Shown: positions 2,335 through 20,730 of the stretch, piece by piece | Layout of the letters: each line of letters begins with the position of its first letter | Position numbering within the stretch: position 1 is the first letter of the stretch | DNA from: a virus | Length of the DNA stretch: 22,825 nucleotides | Reading direction: 5' to 3' (one strand) | Virus record (IMG/VR): IMGVR_UViG_3300030102_008089 | Location: 1 to 22,825 of that record | Notes under the pieces: generated by a model | Told to the model about the DNA's origin: nothing | The model's database searches: none | The model's input: only the letters and a program-made list of their open reading frames with translations | Translations under genes and position numbers: made by a program

Positions 2335-2596
2335 AAAGAAACTCAAACGAGCAGCCAAAAAGAAAAAAGAAAAGGCAGCTAGCCAAGAAGCCCAAAACAA
2401 GATGAAGAAACAGATGGGAATGTTTGACAGGCTCCCAGATGCTTGCTCCACTTGCGAGGAGAATTTCCCAAAGACCCACGAGGCACACAAAACTTGGCGA
2501 GTGGTAGTCAAGACAGAAAAAGAAAAGGTCTGGCTTTTTTGTCCCGACTGTCAACAGAAAGCCAAACAATTGGTGGAGAATAATAATGAAATTTAA
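2318..2596 (+). CDS. Small four-cysteine phage protein, basic N-terminus (92 aa)
   Basis: I place the start at GTG 2318, behind AAAAGGATATG, because relatives of this phage family begin directly with a lysine-rich helix; an in-frame ATG at 2279 would add 13 residues lacking that character. Residues 3-31 are strongly basic (KKHKKKLKRAAKKKKEK). Then follow GMFDRLPDACSTC and a second half with VVVKTEKEKVWLFCPDC. Cys43/Cys46 and Cys75/Cys78 form two CxxC knuckles, so a zinc ribbon is likely. The 'mFD.lPd.C..C...F.k.......W.V.v...k.v.LfCP.C' pattern is common in T4-like marine phages. The basic arm and zinc site suggest nucleic-acid binding, as inference. Overlaps the next gene by 11 bases. Confidence 0.83.
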   Translation: MDKKHKKKLKRAAKKKKEKAASQEAQNKMKKQMGMFDRLPDACSTCEENFPKTHEAHKTWRVVVKTEKEKVWLFCPDCQQKAKQLVENNNEI

Positions 2597-3629
2597 AGAA
2601 GCAGTCACCTACGACGATATGCTTATCGTGCCGCAGTACAGCGACATCGAGAGCCGCAAAGAGGTAGACATCGGTAACAGCCTGGGACACAGAAAGTTTC
2701 GCATTCCGATCATCTCTTCTCCGATGGACACGGTAACGCAAGCCGATATGGCTGTTGCTATGTATCGATCTGGCGGACTTGGAGTGCTCCACCGCTACAA
2801 CACAATCGCTGAGCAATCGATAATGGCTCGTGAGGTTATTGATCACACAGAGTGGTCAGGCAATGTGGCTGCTGCTATTGGTGTGACTGGCGAGTATCTT
2901 AAACGGGCTGAGACGCTGGTTGCTACGGGAGTGGACATTCTCTGTGTGGACGTCGCTCACGGTCACCATTCTTTAATGAAGAAAGCCCTCACGACTTTAC
3001 GGGAAGCATTTGAAAATCACATTTATATTATTGCCGGCAACGTCTGCACATTGGAGGGAATTAATGATCTCGCAGATTGGGGCGCTGATGCTGTACGGTG
3101 TAATATTGGTGGCGGCTCCATTTGTTCTACTCGCATTGTTACAGGGCACGGGCTCCCAGGGCTCCAAACGATCTTCGACTGTGCGAAAACGGACAGGGAT
3201 GTTAAGATCATCGCAGACGGTGGAATCAAAACATCGGGAGACATCGTAAAAGCTCTTGCTGCTGGAGCCGACTTTGTAATGTGCGGCTCGCTCTTGGCAG
3301 GCACGACCGAAAGCCCTGGTAAGATCTTGAACCTGCCCGACAACTCCCGAGTAAAAGAATACCGAGGCATGGCTTCGAAAGATGCCCAACTTGATTGGCG
3401 CAAGAAGTCATCTACTCCAGAAGGTGTTGCATCTTATATTCCATTTAAAGGCAGTGTGGTCGATATTCTCGCCGACCTAGAGGGCGGCATCAAGTCAGGT
3501 CTTTCTTACACTGGTGCTCGTAACTTGACAGAACTGAGAAATAAGGTAGAATGGGCACGCCAAACCCCAGCAGGCACTCAGGAAAGCGGGACTCATATTT
3601 TTACAGCGCAAAATGGAAGTAAAAAATGA
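2586..3629 (+). CDS. IMP dehydrogenase/GMP reductase family enzyme, CBS-less
   Basis: A TIM-barrel enzyme of purine nucleotide metabolism acting on IMP or GMP with NAD(P). Visible motifs: TYDDMLIVPQYSD (8-20), SSPMDTVT (44-51), the GGLGVLHR segment (63-70), VDVAHGH (121-127), GNVCT (151-155), catalytic loop GGGSICSTR (175-183) with Cys180 and Thr182, ADGGIKTSGDI (210-220), CGSLLAGT (233-240), YRGMASK (259-265) and TPAGTQES (327-334). At 347 residues there is no room for the CBS pair of ordinary IMPDH (about 490). The barrel and the 'AGxxES' tail look IMPDH-like, while the length looks like GMP reductase. The Arg-Tyr pair of the IMPDH flap is not evident, and the Glu that GMP reductase has after YRGMSS is Lys here. 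So the direction of the reaction cannot be assigned. ATG 2586 lies behind GGTGGAGAATA. Confidence 0.93.
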   Translation: MKFKEAVTYDDMLIVPQYSDIESRKEVDIGNSLGHRKFRIPIISSPMDTVTQADMAVAMYRSGGLGVLHRYNTIAEQSIMAREVIDHTEWSGNVAAAIGVTGEYLKRAETLVATGVDILCVDVAHGHHSLMKKALTTLREAFENHIYIIAGNVCTLEGINDLADWGADAVRCNIGGGSICSTRIVTGHGLPGLQTIFDCAKTDRDVKIIADGGIKTSGDIVKALAAGADFVMCGSLLAGTTESPGKILNLPDNSRVKEYRGMASKDAQLDWRKKSSTPEGVASYIPFKGSVVDILADLEGGIKSGLSYTGARNLTELRNKVEWARQTPAGTQESGTHIFTAQNGSKK

Positions 3630-4716: not shown

Positions 4717-5334
4717 ATGACAAAGAAAGCTTCAAAGCTAATTAATGAAAATGTTATTCGTCGCTGGGGAAAGCTTGCCAATATGGCACCTCTCACCGAA
4801 AACTTTATTGACACCCTCGAAGAGGAAGAAGAAGAAATCGCCCTCGCCGAAGATGAAATGGAGGCTGGCGAAGCCGAGATGGAAGCTGGCGAAGAGCCTG
4901 AAGCATCCGCAGGCGAAGAAGAAACAGTTGAGCGCATTGTTGCCGCAGTTGTAGATGCCATCTCCGATGAGACTGGTGTTGAAATTGAGGTCGAAGGCGA
5001 AGCTGGCGATGAAGCTGCTGACGACGAAATGGAAGTAAGCATGGACGCAGAGGACGCAATGGGCGACGAAGCTGACGCCGAAATGGACGCCGCAATGCGT
5101 GACCACGCTATGAATCGTGACGATGAGGAACTCCACGAGCGAGGTAACAAGATGGCTGCCAAGCGTGATGAAGAAGGCAAAGATCATGACCGTGCCGACC
5201 AACGTGACGATGATGAAAAGCACGACCGCAAGAAAATGAAGAAGGAAGAGCTTGAGCTTGAAGTCATTGACGACGAAGAGCTTACCGAAGCTGTTCTTCA
5301 ACGAGTGGTCGAACGACTCCTTAAGCGTCAATAA
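4717..5334 (+). CDS. Highly acidic prohead-core-like protein
   Basis: A 205-residue protein starting at ATG 4717 behind CTTAAGGAGTAAA. The N-terminus NENVIRRWGKLANMAPLTENF is a conserved opening of acidic structural proteins in marine T4-like phages. Residues about 33-130 are dominated by Glu, Asp, Ala, Gly and Met, with low-complexity repeats such as EAGEAEMEAGEE. The middle ETVERIVAAVVDAI and the C-terminal ELTEAVLQRVVERLLKRQ are amphipathic helices. A charged Asp/Lys/His/Arg stretch separates the acidic part from the last helix. T4 internal scaffold (prohead core) proteins are likewise small and very acidic, so a core or scaffold role is the best guess; no homology can be shown here. The strong ribosome site and dense favourable codons suggest high expression. 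Confidence 0.85.
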   Translation: MTKKASKLINENVIRRWGKLANMAPLTENFIDTLEEEEEEIALAEDEMEAGEAEMEAGEEPEASAGEEETVERIVAAVVDAISDETGVEIEVEGEAGDEAADDEMEVSMDAEDAMGDEADAEMDAAMRDHAMNRDDEELHERGNKMAAKRDEEGKDHDRADQRDDDEKHDRKKMKKEELELEVIDDEELTEAVLQRVVERLLKRQ

Positions 5335-5350
5335 TCCCTCGGGAGAAAAC

Positions 5351-6277
5351 ATGAAACGTTTTCAAGCAAACGACCTTCGTAACTTAGTTACCGAGGTCGT
5401 TTCTGCTTATCTAGCAGAAAAAAGAAATAAATGGCTACTGGAAAGCCCCGAAGTAATTGAGGAAGGGGTCTTTGATCCCGGCATCCTCAAAGCAGTCTTC
5501 ACGGCTGGCGGACCAGGCAGCGGAAAATCTTTCACAGCCGATTTGATTTTCGGCATGAGGGATGCAGCAGGCAAGCCGCTCTTCAAACGAGCATCTTTCC
5601 TAGGACCAACGGGATTGAAGTATGTGAATTCAGACAACCTTTTTGAGAAGGGGTTAAAGAATGCAGGTATTGATGCAGGCGACCTAGCAAGAATTGAGAA
5701 GGAAGACCCAGAACTTTGGGATAGGATTCAAGGATCAGAGCCTACCTCTATTCGTAATGTGGCCAAGTCCCAACTTGCTAGTCTCAAAGCGTTCTATGAG
5801 TCGGGACGACTGGGGATGTTGGTTGATGGTACGGGTCGTCGCTATGATAAAATGGTTCGCCAAAAGGAAGCCCTTGAAGCCCTTGGTTATGATACCATGC
5901 TCATTTTTGTTGATACGAGCGAAGATGTGGCGGTGGAAAGAAACAATAGCCGAGAGCGTAAACTTCCAGAAGAAGGCGTCCGAAAAATGTGGCAAGCCGT
6001 ACAGGATAACAAAGCGGGCTTTCAGCAATTGTTTGGGGATGATATGGTGATCATTAACAACGATAGGTTCGGACCTCCCGAAGAAGAAATCATCCAGAAG
6101 ATTACGGGCTTCGTTGACGCTCCAGTCCGCAACCCACTCGGACAGGCATGGATTGAAGACGAACTAGAAATGCGTGGAGTAACTACGCTAGAGCCTGGCG
6201 GAGCAAGTGGCTTCCGTGGTGGTCGCCAAGATGCTGACCGCATACAACAGATGAGGGATGAACGGGGGGAACAGTGA
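5351..6277 (+). CDS. P-loop kinase, zeta-toxin-like
   Basis: ATG at 5351 follows TCGGGAGAAAAC; open frame further upstream overlaps the preceding gene and is not used. Residues 1-24 form an amphipathic helix (LRNLVTEVVSAYLAEK). Residues 52-60 (AGGPGSGKS) are a Walker A loop, YVNSDNLFEKGL (91-102) matches the 'NsD' motif of zeta toxin/phosphotransferase kinases, and MLVDGTGRR (156-164) is the Walker B strand with the 'DGTgr' turn; LIFVDTSEDVAVERNNSR (184-201) is the family's lid region with basic residues. The known members phosphorylate sugars, nucleotides or polynucleotide ends; the substrate here is unknown. The C-terminal about 50 residues (RNPLGQAW...) fall outside the kinase core. Its place among structural-looking genes hints at a virion or head-assembly role. 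Confidence 0.88.
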   Translation: MKRFQANDLRNLVTEVVSAYLAEKRNKWLLESPEVIEEGVFDPGILKAVFTAGGPGSGKSFTADLIFGMRDAAGKPLFKRASFLGPTGLKYVNSDNLFEKGLKNAGIDAGDLARIEKEDPELWDRIQGSEPTSIRNVAKSQLASLKAFYESGRLGMLVDGTGRRYDKMVRQKEALEALGYDTMLIFVDTSEDVAVERNNSRERKLPEEGVRKMWQAVQDNKAGFQQLFGDDMVIINNDRFGPPEEEIIQKITGFVDAPVRNPLGQAWIEDELEMRGVTTLEPGGASGFRGGRQDADRIQQMRDERGEQ

Positions 6278-10273: not shown

Positions 10274-12197
<1,924 letters not shown>

Positions 12198-14887: not shown

Positions 14888-15601
14888 GTGAAGTTTCCTA
14901 CTTGGGAACAGCTAGTTTCTGGCTTTTGTTCTATTGAAAAAGACAATCCTAATTTTGAAAAGTTTGCTCGCAGACGTTTTAACTATGCTGCGACTCTCGA
15001 CAAACAGTCCTGTCGAATGATTTTTTTAAGGGGCGTTTTGTCTCAAAAAACTAATAAAACTTTGTATCGCAATGGGCGCTTTATTTGGTGTCGCAATTTA
15101 AGATATGAAGGCTTAGGAAAGGACGGTTACAGGGTCGTGTCTTTCACTGTAGACAAAGGTAAGAAAAGATTTTATATACCAGAAAACAATATGATGTGTT
15201 TGCCATCTCAGATTTGTATTGGATATAATCGATACTTTAGTTCCAAGCTCAAGACTTTTTTACCTTTTTCGACGGTCTTTGGATACAAAAACTGTATTCG
15301 TATGATGGCTAGAAACGGAGACTTTAACAGAGAGGAGCTTCTTCGGGCGATTGAAGAAGATTGTCCGTATCGACCAGGCACTCTTATATCTCCCCGCCAA
15401 GGATACTTTTATCCTGACACAAATTTAGCAAAATTGAATCAACAAGAAAAACTCAAACAAGAACATCCCTGTGGTATTATCCTTGGACGATCTCTAGTTG
15501 AAAACAGTTATGTTTCAAGTGAGTTTTATAGAGTCCGCTTTGGGAATACTACTTATGAAAGAATACACCCCGTTCAGATGGAGATTATAAATGAAGTTTA
15601 G
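14888..15601 (+). CDS. Unknown phage protein with SH3-like modules
   Basis: GTG 14888, behind GGGGGGCTGAC, is the first plausible start; the frame is open earlier but overlaps the preceding gene. The 237-residue product begins KFPTWEQLVSGFCSIEKDN and has many aromatic and basic residues. CPYRPGTLISPRQGY (about 157-171), GIILGRSLVE and FYRVRFGNTTYERI repeat the 'PGxL(I/V) ... GiiLg ... v.fg' barrel layout of the tandem miniproteins. The middle part (IWCRNLRYEGLGKDGYRVVSFTVDKGKKRFYIPENNMM as consecutive strands) may be an earlier, diverged copy. AT-rich codon use contrasts with the 13345 gene. Function unknown. Confidence 0.82.
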   Translation: MKFPTWEQLVSGFCSIEKDNPNFEKFARRRFNYAATLDKQSCRMIFLRGVLSQKTNKTLYRNGRFIWCRNLRYEGLGKDGYRVVSFTVDKGKKRFYIPENNMMCLPSQICIGYNRYFSSKLKTFLPFSTVFGYKNCIRMMARNGDFNREELLRAIEEDCPYRPGTLISPRQGYFYPDTNLAKLNQQEKLKQEHPCGIILGRSLVENSYVSSEFYRVRFGNTTYERIHPVQMEIINEV

Positions 15602-15848
15602 ATTATATACAAAGAATGATTGTCCCTATTGTCAAATGGCAATTCGTTTGCTGGCAGAAAATAATAAAGAGTTTGAATGTTATGCACTAGACAGCCAGCC
15701 AAAGTTGCTAAATGAAATAAAATCAACATATCGTTGGGAAACTGTTCCTGTTGTTGTCGAGATCACTGAGGGGCAGGAGAAGTTTATTGGAGGTTTTACT
15801 GATCTTAAAGAGTATTTAGATAAAGGCAAGCAACTTCTTCAAGGATAA
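15591..15848 (+). CDS. Glutaredoxin
   Basis: An 85-residue thioredoxin-fold redox protein. RLYTKNDCPYC (4-14) has the classic CPYC active site (Cys11, Cys14). TVPVVV (51-56) carries the cis-proline before a strand, and GGFTDL (67-72) matches the C-terminal glutathione-binding GG(F/C/S)(T/D)D loop. It reduces disulfides with glutathione; in T4-like phages, glutaredoxin supplies electrons to phage ribonucleotide reductase, but no reductase gene is in this window. It overlaps the previous gene by 11 bases and is 5 bases from clpP. Confidence 0.93.
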   Translation: MKFRLYTKNDCPYCQMAIRLLAENNKEFECYALDSQPKLLNEIKSTYRWETVPVVVEITEGQEKFIGGFTDLKEYLDKGKQLLQG

Positions 15849-15853
15849 AAAAT

Positions 15854-16456
15854 ATGATTTGGACTTCAAAGATCTCTCCACTCCTCAAGGAGGTGGAACT
15901 TCGGAAACCACCAATTATAATAAGGGTTAATAAGTTTACCGAGGAGTCAGCCAAAAAGTTTCACCAAGAGATGGCGATGGCCCATAGCAGCGGGCAAAAG
16001 GTTATTCCAGTTGTTATTGATTCATATGGTGGACAGGTATATTCCCTTATGTCGATGATTTCAGCTATTCAAGCTGCTGATCTTCCTGTCGCTACTATCG
16101 TTGAAGGAAAGGCGATGTCCTGTGGTGCTGTTCTTCTTTCCTTTGGGGAGCAGGGGATGAGGTTTGCAGACCCGAACGCTACGGTAATGGTCCACGATGT
16201 TAGCAGTGGCGGCTATGGAAAGATTGAAGAACTCAAAGCAGATGTCAAAGAAGCTGAGCGACTTGACGAAAAGATATTTACGATGATGGCTCGCAATTGC
16301 GGGAAGAAAGACGACTACTTCAAGAAAAAGGTTTTTAATAAGAAACATGCTGACTGGTTTATGGATGCCGAGGAAGCTAAAAAACACGGACTTGTCAATC
16401 ACCTTAGAGTTCCTAAGCTTAAAATCAAGGTAGATGTGGACATAGATTTTGAGTGA
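15854..16456 (+). CDS. clpP: ClpP-type serine protease
   Basis: A 200-residue ClpP/crotonase-fold peptidase. The oxyanion loop is IDSYGGQVYS (55-64); nucleophile Ser89 in GKAMSCGAVLL (85-95, compare GQAASMG in bacterial ClpP); His114 in VMVHDVSSGG (111-120); Asp167 in ADWFMDAEEAKKHGLV (166-181). So the Ser-His-Asp triad and the oxyanion loop are intact. The C-terminal tail (LKIKVDVDIDFE) is unusual and acidic. There is no ClpX or ClpA gene nearby, so it either works alone, processes phage proteins such as prohead components, or docks to a host ATPase. ATG 15854 follows AAGGATAAAAAAT. Stop overlaps the next ATG. Confidence 0.93.
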   Translation: MIWTSKISPLLKEVELRKPPIIIRVNKFTEESAKKFHQEMAMAHSSGQKVIPVVIDSYGGQVYSLMSMISAIQAADLPVATIVEGKAMSCGAVLLSFGEQGMRFADPNATVMVHDVSSGGYGKIEELKADVKEAERLDEKIFTMMARNCGKKDDYFKKKVFNKKHADWFMDAEEAKKHGLVNHLRVPKLKIKVDVDIDFE

Positions 16457-16941
16457 TGGCCGAATATATATTAGTCTCGTTTTTGGCGTACAACTTTCCC
16501 ACGTATTTTAATACGGAACAGAAACTTAATGCATCTGTTATTATAGACAAGTCCCTAGATGTCGGCGAGGATCCATACTTTATGGTGGCTCTCTCCTGGG
16601 TGGAATCACGAGTCAAAGCAGGGGGCGTATCGCACACAGGAGACTACGGAATATTTCAAATTAATTATCATTTTTGGGCAAAGAAATGGGGATACACGAG
16701 TCGAAAGAAATTCCTAGTTGATATGTCTAGCGCCGCTCACGCCACCGTTGCTGCCACAACTGTTTTGCGAGCAATGCGGAAATACAGAGCGTGTCAAGGG
16801 CTCAACCTTCCAGCTTGTTATAACGGTGGCCCTGGCTGGCAAAAATCAAAGAACAAAGAAAAGATAATTTCATATGCCAACAAGGTGAATAGGATGCGAG
16901 CAATATTTAAGAGGAAGTTTCCGAAGTGGGTGCTAAGGTGA
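16456..16941 (+). CDS. Lytic transglycosylase (SLT domain)
   Basis: A 161-residue peptidoglycan-cleaving enzyme. ALSWVESR (45-52) contains the catalytic Glu50; SHTGDYGIFQIN (59-70) is the conserved 'G.YG(L/I)(F/M)Q(I/L)' motif; CYNGGPGW (121-128) is the 'YN.G' motif. Together they place it in the Slt/EmtA-like transglycosylases, which cut the MurNAc-GlcNAc bond. ATG 16456 is preferred over GTG 16453; both overlap the clpP stop. Residues 4-14 (YILVSFLAYNF) are hydrophobic but too weak for a sure signal peptide. It may be a lysozyme for release or a virion entry enzyme. Confidence 0.9.
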   Translation: MAEYILVSFLAYNFPTYFNTEQKLNASVIIDKSLDVGEDPYFMVALSWVESRVKAGGVSHTGDYGIFQINYHFWAKKWGYTSRKKFLVDMSSAAHATVAATTVLRAMRKYRACQGLNLPACYNGGPGWQKSKNKEKIISYANKVNRMRAIFKRKFPKWVLR

Positions 16942-18500: not shown

Positions 18501-18875
18501 ATGACCGAAGAAGAGACATTTACAAAGCAGATTGAAACATTTAAAACCTTTTGTAAGAACAACAGGCTAAGATTAAAAGAAGATGGAGATGGGCTGCCAA
18601 TCGCAAGGGCTATCGGTAGATTTAAAGACGATCAATTCTTTTGTAACTTTAAAGATGGGACGATCGGCGTTTATGTTACACGAGAAACTCAAAGACAGTT
18701 TACTTATCTTAACAAAAAGCTCGTTAAGATGGGCTGTATTCCAACACAGCTAGGTGACTTTGAGGCATCTTATGATTTAGAGTGGATGAACATCCCACCT
18801 GTAGCTAAACTCTTGAAGATTAAGAAGGGAGCACCGAAGGTTAAGGACCCGAAGTGGCTAAGAGAAAATGGATAA
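18501..18875 (+). CDS. Hypothetical phage protein (124 aa)
   Basis: ATG 18501 follows TGAAAGGAAGGTCA. The product has a helix ETFTKQIETFKTFCKNN, then RLKEDGDGLPIARAIGRFKDDQFF, a strand GTIGVYVTRETQRQFTYLNKKL, and PPVAKLLKIKKG. Pattern of short strands in 'LPiAR..GrfkDdqf' suggests a small alpha/beta fold common to phage unknowns. No catalytic triad or metal site. It overlaps the next gene by 8 bases. Confidence 0.8.
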   Translation: MTEEETFTKQIETFKTFCKNNRLRLKEDGDGLPIARAIGRFKDDQFFCNFKDGTIGVYVTRETQRQFTYLNKKLVKMGCIPTQLGDFEASYDLEWMNIPPVAKLLKIKKGAPKVKDPKWLRENG

Positions 18876-19059
18876 TGAACAAAAAACATTTGTAGACTGG
18901 AAAGAAGAGTTTGATAGCGGCTCTTCTAAACAGTCTGCTGAACTCGCTGCAAAATTTATGTTTGCAATGTCGTATTATTATGATAGAATGCGTTTGCACA
19001 TGATGCTTCATCCCCTGTTTTATTTGGCAGGGTTCATCACCGCCTACGCTTTATTATAA
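18868..19059 (+). CDS. Small C-terminally anchored membrane protein
   Basis: ATG 18868 overlaps the preceding gene. The 63-residue product is a helical, charged N-terminal part (FVDWKEEFDSGSSKQSAELAAK) and a hydrophobic C-terminus with LHPLFYLAGFITAYALL (47-63), probably one membrane helix that ends the protein, as in tail-anchored proteins. Methionine-rich middle (RMRLHMMLH). No family recognised. Confidence 0.75.
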   Translation: MDNEQKTFVDWKEEFDSGSSKQSAELAAKFMFAMSYYYDRMRLHMMLHPLFYLAGFITAYALL

Positions 19060-19069
19060 GGAGAACAAG

Positions 19070-19309
19070 ATGGCAGGTAGGATTCTAGACAAGACAATTA
19101 CAAGTTTCGAGGAAGCCACGGGCAGGATCGAGGACGCAATCGGATGGGTCGAAAAGGCAAAAGACTATGCCAACGAGTTTGATCCTGGCTGCAAAGCATA
19201 CGTGGACCTCCACCTCGTCGAGCAAGTTTTGAAGAAGGCAAAGAAGAAAGTCTACAAAGCTTCGAACGATCTATGCAAAGAGGTCTTCGACGTCGGCGGC
19301 AAGAAATAA
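19070..19309 (+). CDS. Small helical phage protein (79 aa)
   Basis: ATG 19070, behind ATAAGGAGAACAAG. The product is helical with regular charged residues: TSFEEATGRIEDAIGWVEKAKDYANEF, then AYVDLHLVEQVLKKAKKKVY and SNDLCKEVFDVGGKK. GC-rich codons. No recognised family. It precedes the terminator at 19333, so it closes the transcription unit that starts at 13345. Confidence 0.8.
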   Translation: MAGRILDKTITSFEEATGRIEDAIGWVEKAKDYANEFDPGCKAYVDLHLVEQVLKKAKKKVYKASNDLCKEVFDVGGKK

Positions 19310-19332
19310 GTAATATTCAGCAGGCAAAGGTA

Positions 19333-19357
19333 GGCGAAGCCTTCGCCAAATTTTTTT
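19333..19357 (+). terminator. Intrinsic terminator
   Basis: GGCGAA (19333-19338) pairs with TTCGCC (19342-19347) over a GCC loop, followed by AAA and seven T (19351-19357). The stem is short but perfect and GC-rich. It sits between the genes at 19070 and 19376. Confidence 0.7.
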
Positions 19358-19375
19358 ACAGAAAGGCAGTCCAAA

Positions 19376-19615
19376 ATGACCAAAACCAACAATGAATTTG
19401 AAACCACCGTGAAGGAATTCGTGGAAAAGCTTTCCACCATCGAGAATGAGATGGCAGTCCTTCGACTAGACCGTTCGGAACTCTTTGGGGAGATGAAGGA
19501 GAAGCTCGACCCTCGATCATTTCGAGCAGCGATCAAGATCCATAATTTGCAAAAGTCCACACCTGACCAAACTTCTTTGGCTAGAATCTTGGAAGTTTTG
19601 GAGACTAGCGAATAG
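19376..19615 (+). CDS. GapR/DUF2312-like small protein
   Basis: ATG 19376 is behind AGAAAGGCAGTCCAAA. The 79-residue product is helical, with VKEFVEKLSTIENEMAVLRLDRSELFGEMKEKLDPRSFRAAIKIHNLQKS (about 12-61, in three helices) arranged as in GapR/DUF2312 proteins: 'L..fierIe.LEeEk..i..di.ev..eAk..Gfd.k.lr.i.rlr'. GapR proteins coat overtwisted DNA. Similarity is moderate and the typical 'GFD' turn is DPRSF here. It is well spaced behind its own terminator. Confidence 0.78.
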   Translation: MTKTNNEFETTVKEFVEKLSTIENEMAVLRLDRSELFGEMKEKLDPRSFRAAIKIHNLQKSTPDQTSLARILEVLETSE

Positions 19616-20101
19616 TTATTATACTATGGGGTAACTGAGCCGACAAAACCACTTCAACTTTGTGTAGCCTTTTACAAGGGTGAGGGACGTTGGCACAACC
19701 GAATAGTCCGATGGACAACCCAAAGTAAATACTCGCACGCAGAACTGATCATGCCCGACAATACTTGCATAAGCATAACACCATTCGGCGCAGCAGGCAT
19801 CCGCAGAAAACCTTTTGAAGAACGTGAAGAAGACTATGACATCGTTTGCGTACCAGTCAACACCAATCAACTGGAAATTATCGAAAAGTTCTACGCCGAC
19901 ACTCGGGGGGACGGCTACGACTGGCCTGGGATGTTGTTGTCGAAGTTCACGCCTTTCTTTGTCAAGCGTGTTGGACGCTGGTATTGTTCTGAGTGGATCG
20001 CCTATGCCCTACGACTGGCAGGAGCCGTCAACAACCTATACCATTACCCTGACCTCACGCCCCAAAGGCTGTATGAGGTGTTAAAAAAATATCAAAAGTA
20101 A
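19616..20101 (+). CDS. Permuted papain-like (YiiX-type) peptidase, start missing
   Basis: From 19616 to 20101 the frame is open and coding-like: LCVAFYKGEGRWHNRIVRW, YSHAELIMPDN, then GDGYDWPGMLLSKFTPFF and RWYCSEWIAYAL. The His of YSHAEL (nt 19736-19738) and the Cys of WYCSEW (Cys79 counted from 19751) are the expected catalytic pair of permuted NlpC/P60-like peptidases ('VAFYKG.G...r...W.....ySH.EL ... yDw.G.L ... W.CSE'). But no ATG, GTG or TTG occurs in frame before ATG 19751, which would cut off the His. ATG 19626 is one frame off: adding one G to its GGGG run would give an in-frame start. So either a non-standard start, an indel, or a decayed gene. The evidence favours a gene of about 158 residues. 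Confidence 0.75.
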   Translation, partial: LLYYGVTEPTKPLQLCVAFYKGEGRWHNRIVRWTTQSKYSHAELIMPDNTCISITPFGAAGIRRKPFEEREEDYDIVCVPVNTNQLEIIEKFYADTRGDGYDWPGMLLSKFTPFFVKRVGRWYCSEWIAYALRLAGAVNNLYHYPDLTPQRLYEVLKKYQK

Positions 20102-20112
20102 GGAGTTACAAA

Positions 20113-20382
20113 ATGAATACTATTAATTACCAACAGATCTACGAAGATGAAGTGAGCGATAGCATTAAGGATTCGCTTGAGAAGCCGTCAAGGTTCCACG
20201 ATCTTTCGAGTCACGAGAGAATGCTGGTTGAAGAACTTATTGATCTTGGCTATCAAAGGGCTGTCGAAGATGCTTTGGATCCGACAGTTCTTGAAGAGAT
20301 GTCTGAGCTTTCGATCGAAATGGGAGCACAACTCACATCGCTCGCAGAAGTTTTGAAAAGTTATATTTCCGAAAAAAAATAA
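20113..20382 (+). CDS. Hypothetical phage protein (89 aa)
   Basis: ATG 20113, behind GTAAGGAGTTACAAA. A helical, acidic protein: YQQIYEDEVSDSIKDSLEKPSRF, HERMLVEELIDLGYQRAVEDAL and a C-terminal LSIEMGAQLTSLAEVLKSYISEKK with heptad character. No motif recognised. It lies between the peptidase and two barrel-like genes and 6 bases before the next start. Confidence 0.8.
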   Translation: MNTINYQQIYEDEVSDSIKDSLEKPSRFHDLSSHERMLVEELIDLGYQRAVEDALDPTVLEEMSELSIEMGAQLTSLAEVLKSYISEKK

Positions 20383-20388
20383 AAGAAG

Positions 20389-20730
20389 ATGGCTCTAAAA
20401 TATAAGGTGGGCGACCTAATTAGAGTGGTCGATGGGGAAGGCTCTGGCTTGTGTATTCCTGCGTGGAATAGCAACGTGAAGCATAAGAACCAAGCAAGAG
20501 AGTTTGCACTTAGTTCAAAAGGCACGGAATTTGAAGATTATTTCGTTCCGCTTGAACAAAAAATCGGTTTAATCGTCAAAATAAATAAGAATAGGCTGGA
20601 TCAACCATTGGTGTATGAAGTTCAGTTTGGTCAAAACGTGTGGTTTTTTAAATTTGTTTTTGCCCAAAAATACTTTGAGCCCGTGGAGGACCAGAGCAAT
20701 GATAAAGGAAGGAGACTTCGTACTATTTAA
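20389..20730 (+). CDS. SH3-like small protein (113 aa)
   Basis: ATG 20389, behind AAAAGAAG, a weak site. The product opens KYKVGDLIRVVDGEGSG, the same 'vGDLI(R/V)' motif as the tandem family, then a 50-residue insert, QKIGLIVKINKNR, VYEVQFGQNVWFFKF and YFEPVED. 'GDLIRV ... GLIVKI ... yeVqFg...wfFkf' is one barrel with an extra loop. It overlaps the next member by 32 bases. Function unknown. Confidence 0.8.
   Translation: MALKYKVGDLIRVVDGEGSGLCIPAWNSNVKHKNQAREFALSSKGTEFEDYFVPLEQKIGLIVKINKNRLDQPLVYEVQFGQNVWFFKFVFAQKYFEPVEDQSNDKGRRLRTI

Follow-up and report, generated by a model that had tools for sequence, protein, structure and literature searches.

An invariant ten-base block containing AUG-GGG-UAA precedes a viral YiiX-like peptidase gene without a legal start codon and may provide its translation start

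Introduction

Release factor 2 is produced from prfB by way of a +1 shift at CUU UGA, which lies about 25 codons into the reading frame. Shifty stops are reportedly the subject of a 1987 paper by Weiss, and older work also deals with lambda bar minigenes and with how U(−1) affects initiation. At the prfB site the peptidyl-tRNA slips while the stop codon waits in the A site, the shift is needed to obtain the full protein and reviews describe an SD-like stimulator.

Frameshifting by −1 at Z_ZZN tetramers (IS3 type), as characterized with E. coli reporters, relies on a single tRNA that re-pairs on identical bases, and such signals fuse two ORFs. The efficient motifs named in this study are A_AAG, U_UUC, U_UUU and a few more, in combination with the IS3 pseudoknot, and G_GGG is not among them (PMC4066793). 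According to the same study, G_GGG with a following G lies above background probably because it acts as an SD sequence and not via shifting. The constructs described there carry no stop directly after the motif and therefore do not test an arrangement in which start, slip and stop succeed each other. The codon position next to AUG is described as the most shift-prone of a frame, with +1 shifts at CCC-C of up to 1% (PMC4519876). In yeast YPL034W (YFS1) a +1 shift at a Ty1-like CUU-AGG-C site in a uORF makes the N terminus; that report describes a conserved uORF start, a conserved shift site and an extended main ORF without an AUG in the relatives examined (PMC12719033). Termination-reinitiation, finally, is described at AUGUGA and GUGUGA (PMC9841429).

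Here, we analyse a 22,825-nucleotide stretch of viral DNA (the window), which forms part of a 127,433-base virus record and contains a peptidase gene that follows AUG-GGG-UAA. The proposed event resembles that in prfB in that a stop codon would wait in the A site during the slip, but it would be a −1 shift at codon 2 and has no known stimulator. As at Z_ZZN signals, one tRNA would re-pair on identical bases and enter the −1 frame, while the shift would here start a gene. The likeness to YFS1 lies in the conserved start and shift site and the extended main ORF, whereas YFS1 is eukaryotic and uses a +1 shift. Termination-reinitiation has a counterpart in a sister clade, where a TGA overlapping a GTG closes a short frame, whereas the clade of the window has no start codon at which to reinitiate, except for a TTG in one relative (L006). 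Among the literature matches listed, none describes a gene of a bacterium or phage that begins with a −1 shift at codon 2, which is no proof of absence.

The peptidase gene and its protein

The peptidase frame is open from 19616 to 20101, directly after the TAG at 19613–19615, and its first in-frame ATG, GTG or TTG is the ATG at 19751. The YSHAEL motif is encoded at 19730–19747; the first-pass annotation was thus right that the region of the catalytic histidine lies upstream of this ATG. Judged from the structure model, a protein begun at 19751 would lack the catalytic His as well as strand 1 and helix 1. The only nearby ATG (19626–19628) is, as also recognized earlier, soon closed: it is followed by GGG and by TAA at 19632–19634, with the G run covering 19628–19631. 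Although intact and conserved, the gene has a genuinely unusual start. The features of the locus are collected in Table 1.

Table 1. Positions of the features of the peptidase locus in the window
Feature	Position	Strand	Description
Upstream gene	19376..19615	+	79 aa; weak GapR-like match below the curated cut-off; TAG stop 10 nt before the ATG
AT-rich 5′ half of the element (ATAGTTAT...ACTAT)	19612..19627	+	5-bp dyad, possible weak hairpin; overlaps the stop codon of the upstream gene
Invariant 10-base block TATGGGGTAA	19625..19634	+	U(−1), AUG, GGG, UAA; 10/10 columns invariant in 11 lineages
N-terminal extension, new (proposed)	19631..19651	+	−1 frame; GTA + 6 codons, GTA + 5 in L006–L010
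Lost start position	19652..19654	+	Start codon here in most relatives; CTT in the window, CTT/CAC/CAG/CAT/CTA/TTA/TTG across the clade (TTG in L006 only)
Papain-like (permuted, YiiX-like) domain	19652..20098	+	His 19736–19738, Cys in WYCSE motif, stop 20099–20101; from AlphaFold and structure matches

AlphaFold, run with a 43-row alignment, gives a model with a pLDDT of 85.5 in which the first strand is formed by model residues 7–14, from the lost start position. The first rows returned by Foldseek are those of the B. cereus cysteine peptidase 3kw0 (E = 3.5e-4). When VIA-align was applied to the Foldseek list, the best superposition was that with E. coli YiiX (2if6_B; Z = 12.7, r.m.s.d. 3.1, 134 residues), followed by 3kw0_C (Z = 11.7) and TseH (6v98; Z = 10.0). 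Rows below Z = 8 were left uninterpreted, and families absent from that list may still be related. The protein is predicted from these models to have a permuted papain/YiiX-like fold in which the His strand precedes the Cys helix, and the His and the Cys are invariant in 43/43 aligned members. It has this fold and the His-before-Cys order in common with the YiiX/YaeF (C92) enzymes and TseH, but differs from the C92 enzymes in that Pfam Peptidase_C92 (PF05708) does not match the window protein at E up to 1, and identity to the two top structures is 16% and 14%. The C92 profile matches two of the 43 aligned members (best E = 0.018). As its cut-off is not reached, we call the protein YiiX-like in fold and do not file it as C92. 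DUF7487 weakly matches four of the 43 (best E = 0.00027), and other Pfam names match a few members weakly. The segment 19652–20098 is matched by phrog_1128 (E = 6.5e-31), which is named enoyl-CoA hydratase-like; this label is at odds with a YiiX-like fold and is probably wrong.

Genomic surroundings

A terminator-like hairpin (GGCGAAGCCTTCGCC followed by a T run) is found at 19333–19357, before the upstream gene. In L004 the hairpin and its T run recur, ending some 35 nt upstream of the block's ATG with no GapR-like gene found in between, and the GapR-like gene, which is absent or different in some relatives, thus seems to come and go. Host-like genes in the window encode an IMP dehydrogenase/GMP reductase (2586–3629), a chaperonin (Cpn60; 10611–12197; 44% identity to the best of the phage-collection matches listed), a glutaredoxin (15591–15848), a Clp protease (15854–16456) and an SLT transglycosylase (16453–16941). 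The frame at 5252–6277 encodes a 341-residue protein with a zeta-toxin/AAA kinase-like match. The phage record also carries a tmRNA gene (L152:17062–17386; record positions 59062–59386) with the predicted tag ANDDFEMEMAA, and seven tRNAs including Gly(gcc) and Gly(tcc) lie in the stretch taken from it.

Relatives of the window protein

A protein-based scan of IMG/VR yielded 78 loci. Close relatives are the 12 contigs with at least 66% protein identity (66–84%), all from IMG/VR, and their names point to 11 metagenome datasets. Leaving out L002 and L005, which nearly duplicate L001 and L004, and including the window gives 11 distinct lineages, which share 61–79% DNA identity. The clade of the window forms one branch (support 100/98), and a sister clade consisting of L013, L014, L018, L020 and L019 is supported at 100/99. 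Two additional scans of IMG/VR turned up no further close member in either clade; the one that used the clade alignment recovered the 12 known contigs, and the seven distant loci that were new in these scans (L172, L174, L176, L177 and L183–L185) enter no count. There was no DNA match and there were 13 weak protein matches in the phages collection, while the genome collection contained a single relative (41% identity) on a Neomarinimicrobiota MAG contig.

Neither the window nor 11 of its 12 close relatives have a legal in-frame start. The exception is L006, with one TTG at codon −14 that could be its start and that is found in none of the other ten lineages. This codon, the equivalent of 19652, stands 14 codons ahead of the anchor His (in the window that of HNRIVRW). 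Outside the clade a legal start stands exactly there in 54 of 65 anchored loci and some legal start is present in all 65 (near-copies are kept in, and L077, from which the anchor is absent, is left out). Within the clade the position is a legal start only in L006, although strand 1 of the fold begins there. Homologs do not begin at an equivalent of 19751, since legal starts lie further upstream in the anchored relatives from outside the clade.

Five pairs of relatives were compared over the body of the ORF. They differ at 104, 53 and 336 sites in codon positions 1, 2 and 3, respectively, and of the changed codons 270 are synonymous and 115 non-synonymous. The positional counts indicate that the protein is under purifying selection, and they contradict the earlier suggestion of a newly broken gene. 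Between the block and the old start the same kind of comparison over five pairs gives 7/4/9 differences, with four synonymous and ten non-synonymous changed codons. The residues of the extension are thus weakly constrained, which speaks against any strong claim that the extension itself matters. Its translation is supported by frame, spacing and bounds and not by residue conservation.

A conserved ten-base block

The sequence ATGGGGTAA is found at the same place in all 12 relatives with at least 66% protein identity. All 12, from 11 metagenome datasets, have four G residues and none has five, a comparison that had been set beforehand; a one-base sequencing error, as considered in the first-pass annotation, is therefore very unlikely, and the DNA sequence at the block is very likely correct. 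When the 11 lineages are aligned on the ATG, all ten columns of TATGGGGTAA are invariant. In the ORF alignment of the same 11 lineages, where fourfold sites are saturated, the longest invariant run is five bases, and 6/140 third positions and 0/21 fourfold columns are invariant. Conservation directly outside the block falls to 0.49 (position −2) and 0.45 (position +9), and its edges thus match U(−1)-AUG on one side and the stop on the other. Many strings of the form ATG-ZZZ-stop with an open shifted frame occur in a 674 kb control. The string alone was for this reason not counted, and only its conservation is telling.

One exact copy of TATGGGGTAA is present in the 127-kb record, together with three one-mismatch copies. 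A common phage promoter motif was considered for the block and rejected, as there is only this one exact copy and no shared −35 is seen by eye. The AT-rich part upstream is partly conserved, also where no GapR-like gene is found upstream. The fourth pair of its dyad is G-C in six lineages, G-U in four and broken in one (L003), and the element folds to 0.0 kcal/mol in L014 and L020 of the sister clade. The TATACT box reported in the first-pass annotation is indeed present at 19620–19625, but it is not invariant and occurs with TATGGGGTA attached in 6/12 relatives (L001–L005 and L008). Rfam gives no match over 18800–20300 at E up to 1.

The three frames behind ATG GGG behave differently. The 0 frame closes immediately in 11/11 lineages, the +1 frame runs into a stop ahead of the anchor in 8/11 and the −1 frame, which is that of the peptidase, is open in 11/11. 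The extension varies in length by three bases only and contains no stop in any of the 11 lineages, while its residues are weakly conserved. A DNA scan with a free gap of 9–39 bases retrieved 16 contigs, 12 from the clade of the window and four from the sister clade, with match lengths of 51 (five contigs) or 54 (seven contigs) in the former and 41 in all four of the latter. L006, which has the short spacer, groups with L011 and L012, which have the long one (support 92/93, not starred), so the three-base spacer difference arose at least twice on that tree. In L006 and L007, TAC TAT GGG GTA is immediately preceded by in-frame stops, and entry into the frame must in those two take place at or after the block and not from upstream.

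A possible route into the peptidase frame

On balance, if only slightly, we favour the view that ribosomes reach the peptidase frame by shifting −1 at the second codon of AUG-GGG-UAA. The ribosome would initiate at AUG 19626, decode GGG as glycine and meet UAA. Before release, the fMet-Gly-tRNA would slip by −1 from GGG 19629–19631 to the overlapping GGG 19628–19630, such that the next codon is GUA and the reading M-G-V-T-E-P-T-K-P-LQLCVAFYKGEG... continues to 20101. The stop codon would serve as the pause, in the manner of a −1 'shifty stop', and would keep the enzyme low and termination-sensitive. Initiation at UAUG, incorporation of glycine, pausing at the stop codon and a slip by −1 are preferred because together they are the simplest process that makes use of all fixed bases. 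The earlier idea of a non-standard start is borne out in so far as AUG-GGG-UAA is conserved; that the ribosome uses it by slipping one base backwards is what we infer.

The slippery site G GGG is invariant in 11/11 lineages and the codon is identical after the slip. Shift site and frame are conserved across divergent relatives, and the new frame is under selection. No conserved downstream stimulator was found: z is −2.0 in the window, −1.7 in L009 and between −0.9 and +1.4 in the other nine lineages. Upstream of the slip site there is only a weak hairpin, and a slow stop may suffice. A predicted pairing of GGGTA with 19752–19756 was also considered as stimulator and rejected, as no pair is changed on both sides. 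Nothing SD-like is present in the 20 bases before ATG 19626, the nearest GGAG being 22 nt upstream. An SD-like string lies near a candidate start in 80/104 ORFs from a rough caller, a count that overstates SD use because the caller picks the best of several starts. Initiation at AUG 19626 would be SD-independent, leaderless or coupled. The slip gains support from the shift-proneness described for the codon next to AUG (PMC4519876, for +1 shifts at CCC-C), whereas the reporter result for G_GGG (PMC4066793), the lack of a conserved stimulator and the missing SD sequence weigh against it.

The sister clade

The block is also kept in L013, L014, L018 and L020, the sole change being TAA to TAG in L013, which is still a stop. 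In all four, a GTG follows at 13 nt from the A of the block's ATG. GGGGT stands 6 nt before this GTG in the sister clade and may serve there as SD sequence. The −1 frame ends in the TGA that overlaps the GTG, while the +1 frame is open into the gene. The block is thus retained despite the GTG start and the closed −1 frame, and may therefore have another role. A natural comparison is offered by L019 (3972–4003), which is nested in the sister clade and retains the AT-rich half, with the SD-like AAGGAAGTG and a GTG instead of ATGGGGTAA. L015, on a long branch next outside the sister clade, carries a GTG but lacks the block. The history may plausibly have begun with an ancestor that had both the block and a start codon; an insertion would then have separated them in the clade of the window, where the block came to feed the frame by slipping while the start codon decayed.

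More tentatively, and with a probability that we place a little below even, the ten-base U-AUG-GGG-UAA cassette could be a translation start in its own right, in which synthesis of fMet-Gly is followed by a halt at the stop codon and a slip by −1. It might act in the sister clade as a two-codon leader coupled to the GTG or by a +1 slip from GGG to GGU. The start codon would have become dispensable once the cassette fed the frame, and the cassette could act as a throttle that senses the supply of release factor or glycyl-tRNA.

Alternative explanations

The absence of a start together with a one-base shift is the usual sign of a sequencing error or a decayed gene, but the same arrangement in 12/12 close relatives and the strong purifying selection make this explanation almost certainly wrong. 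Readthrough or hopping from the upstream frame could draw on the upstream ORF, which in the window and several relatives lies in the same frame with one stop at −13 (in the window the TAG at 19613). Open frames of 78 and 125 codons, unlike the GapR-like gene, likewise end there in L003 and L004; we would put both observations down to chance or to out-of-frame reading. In L006 and L010 the frame of the upstream stop differs, in L003, L004, L008 and L009 the search found no GapR-like gene that ends at this point, and L006 and L007 have the further in-frame stop directly before the block, which leaves this route extremely unlikely. Transcriptional slippage, in which RNA polymerase adds a G at GGGG in some transcripts and so joins the AUG to the gene, fits the invariant G run and would give the same fused protein. 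Four G residues are, however, a short run for slippage during elongation, a transcript that begins at the G run would exclude the AUG from the RNA, and the conserved UAA would not be required. We regard this as distinctly improbable.

Two further readings are each unlikely but deserve more weight. The block may be part of a promoter or operator (dyad ATAGT-N6-ACTAT) that is kept for transcription, with translation started in some separate way. The AT-rich dyad and TATACT-like hexamers adjoin GGGG, both clades retain the element, as do relatives that lack the GapR-like gene, and L019 retains the AT-rich half without ATGGGGTAA. On the minus strand a promoter-like 10-of-12 consensus match (19646–19618) runs antisense across the block and is the best of the scanned stretch, with seven such sites in 18800–20500 against 2.0 in shuffles. 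Yet its −10 letters are not kept in L009–L012, and the consensus scan gives no plus-strand match at the block; the single exact copy in the record and the lack of a shared −35 count against this reading as well. Moreover, the A-to-G change in L013 preserves a stop, and the gene would be left without a start. Alternatively, GGGG could act as SD sequence for a non-AUG start in frame, either at the invariant GUA or at an NUU at codon −12, and no frameshift would be involved. The GGGGT before GTG in the sister clade, the invariance of GTA and the fixed TT at codon −12 (CTT, ATT or GTT) agree with such a start, as does the G_GGG construct with a following G, which is described as probably acting as SD for low-level initiation at AUA in E. 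coli (PMC4066793). However, GTA is one change away from GTG and GTG is found in 0/11 lineages, there is no shared near-start codon in frame shortly after GGGG (ACT/AAG/ACA, then GAG/GAA/AAG/CCG/ACA/TCA/CAG), and the fixed ATG, T(−1) and stop are left unexplained.

Implications

Gene finders that require a start codon would cut this protein to 19751, without its predicted catalytic His, or overlook it. If the peptidase is indeed reached by a −1 slip at the second codon, start-slip-stop would be a new variant of programmed frameshifting. It would need ten bases and no large stimulator, and the natural shift-proneness of a two-residue peptidyl-tRNA at a stop codon would become testable. Frameshifting could then replace the start codon itself.
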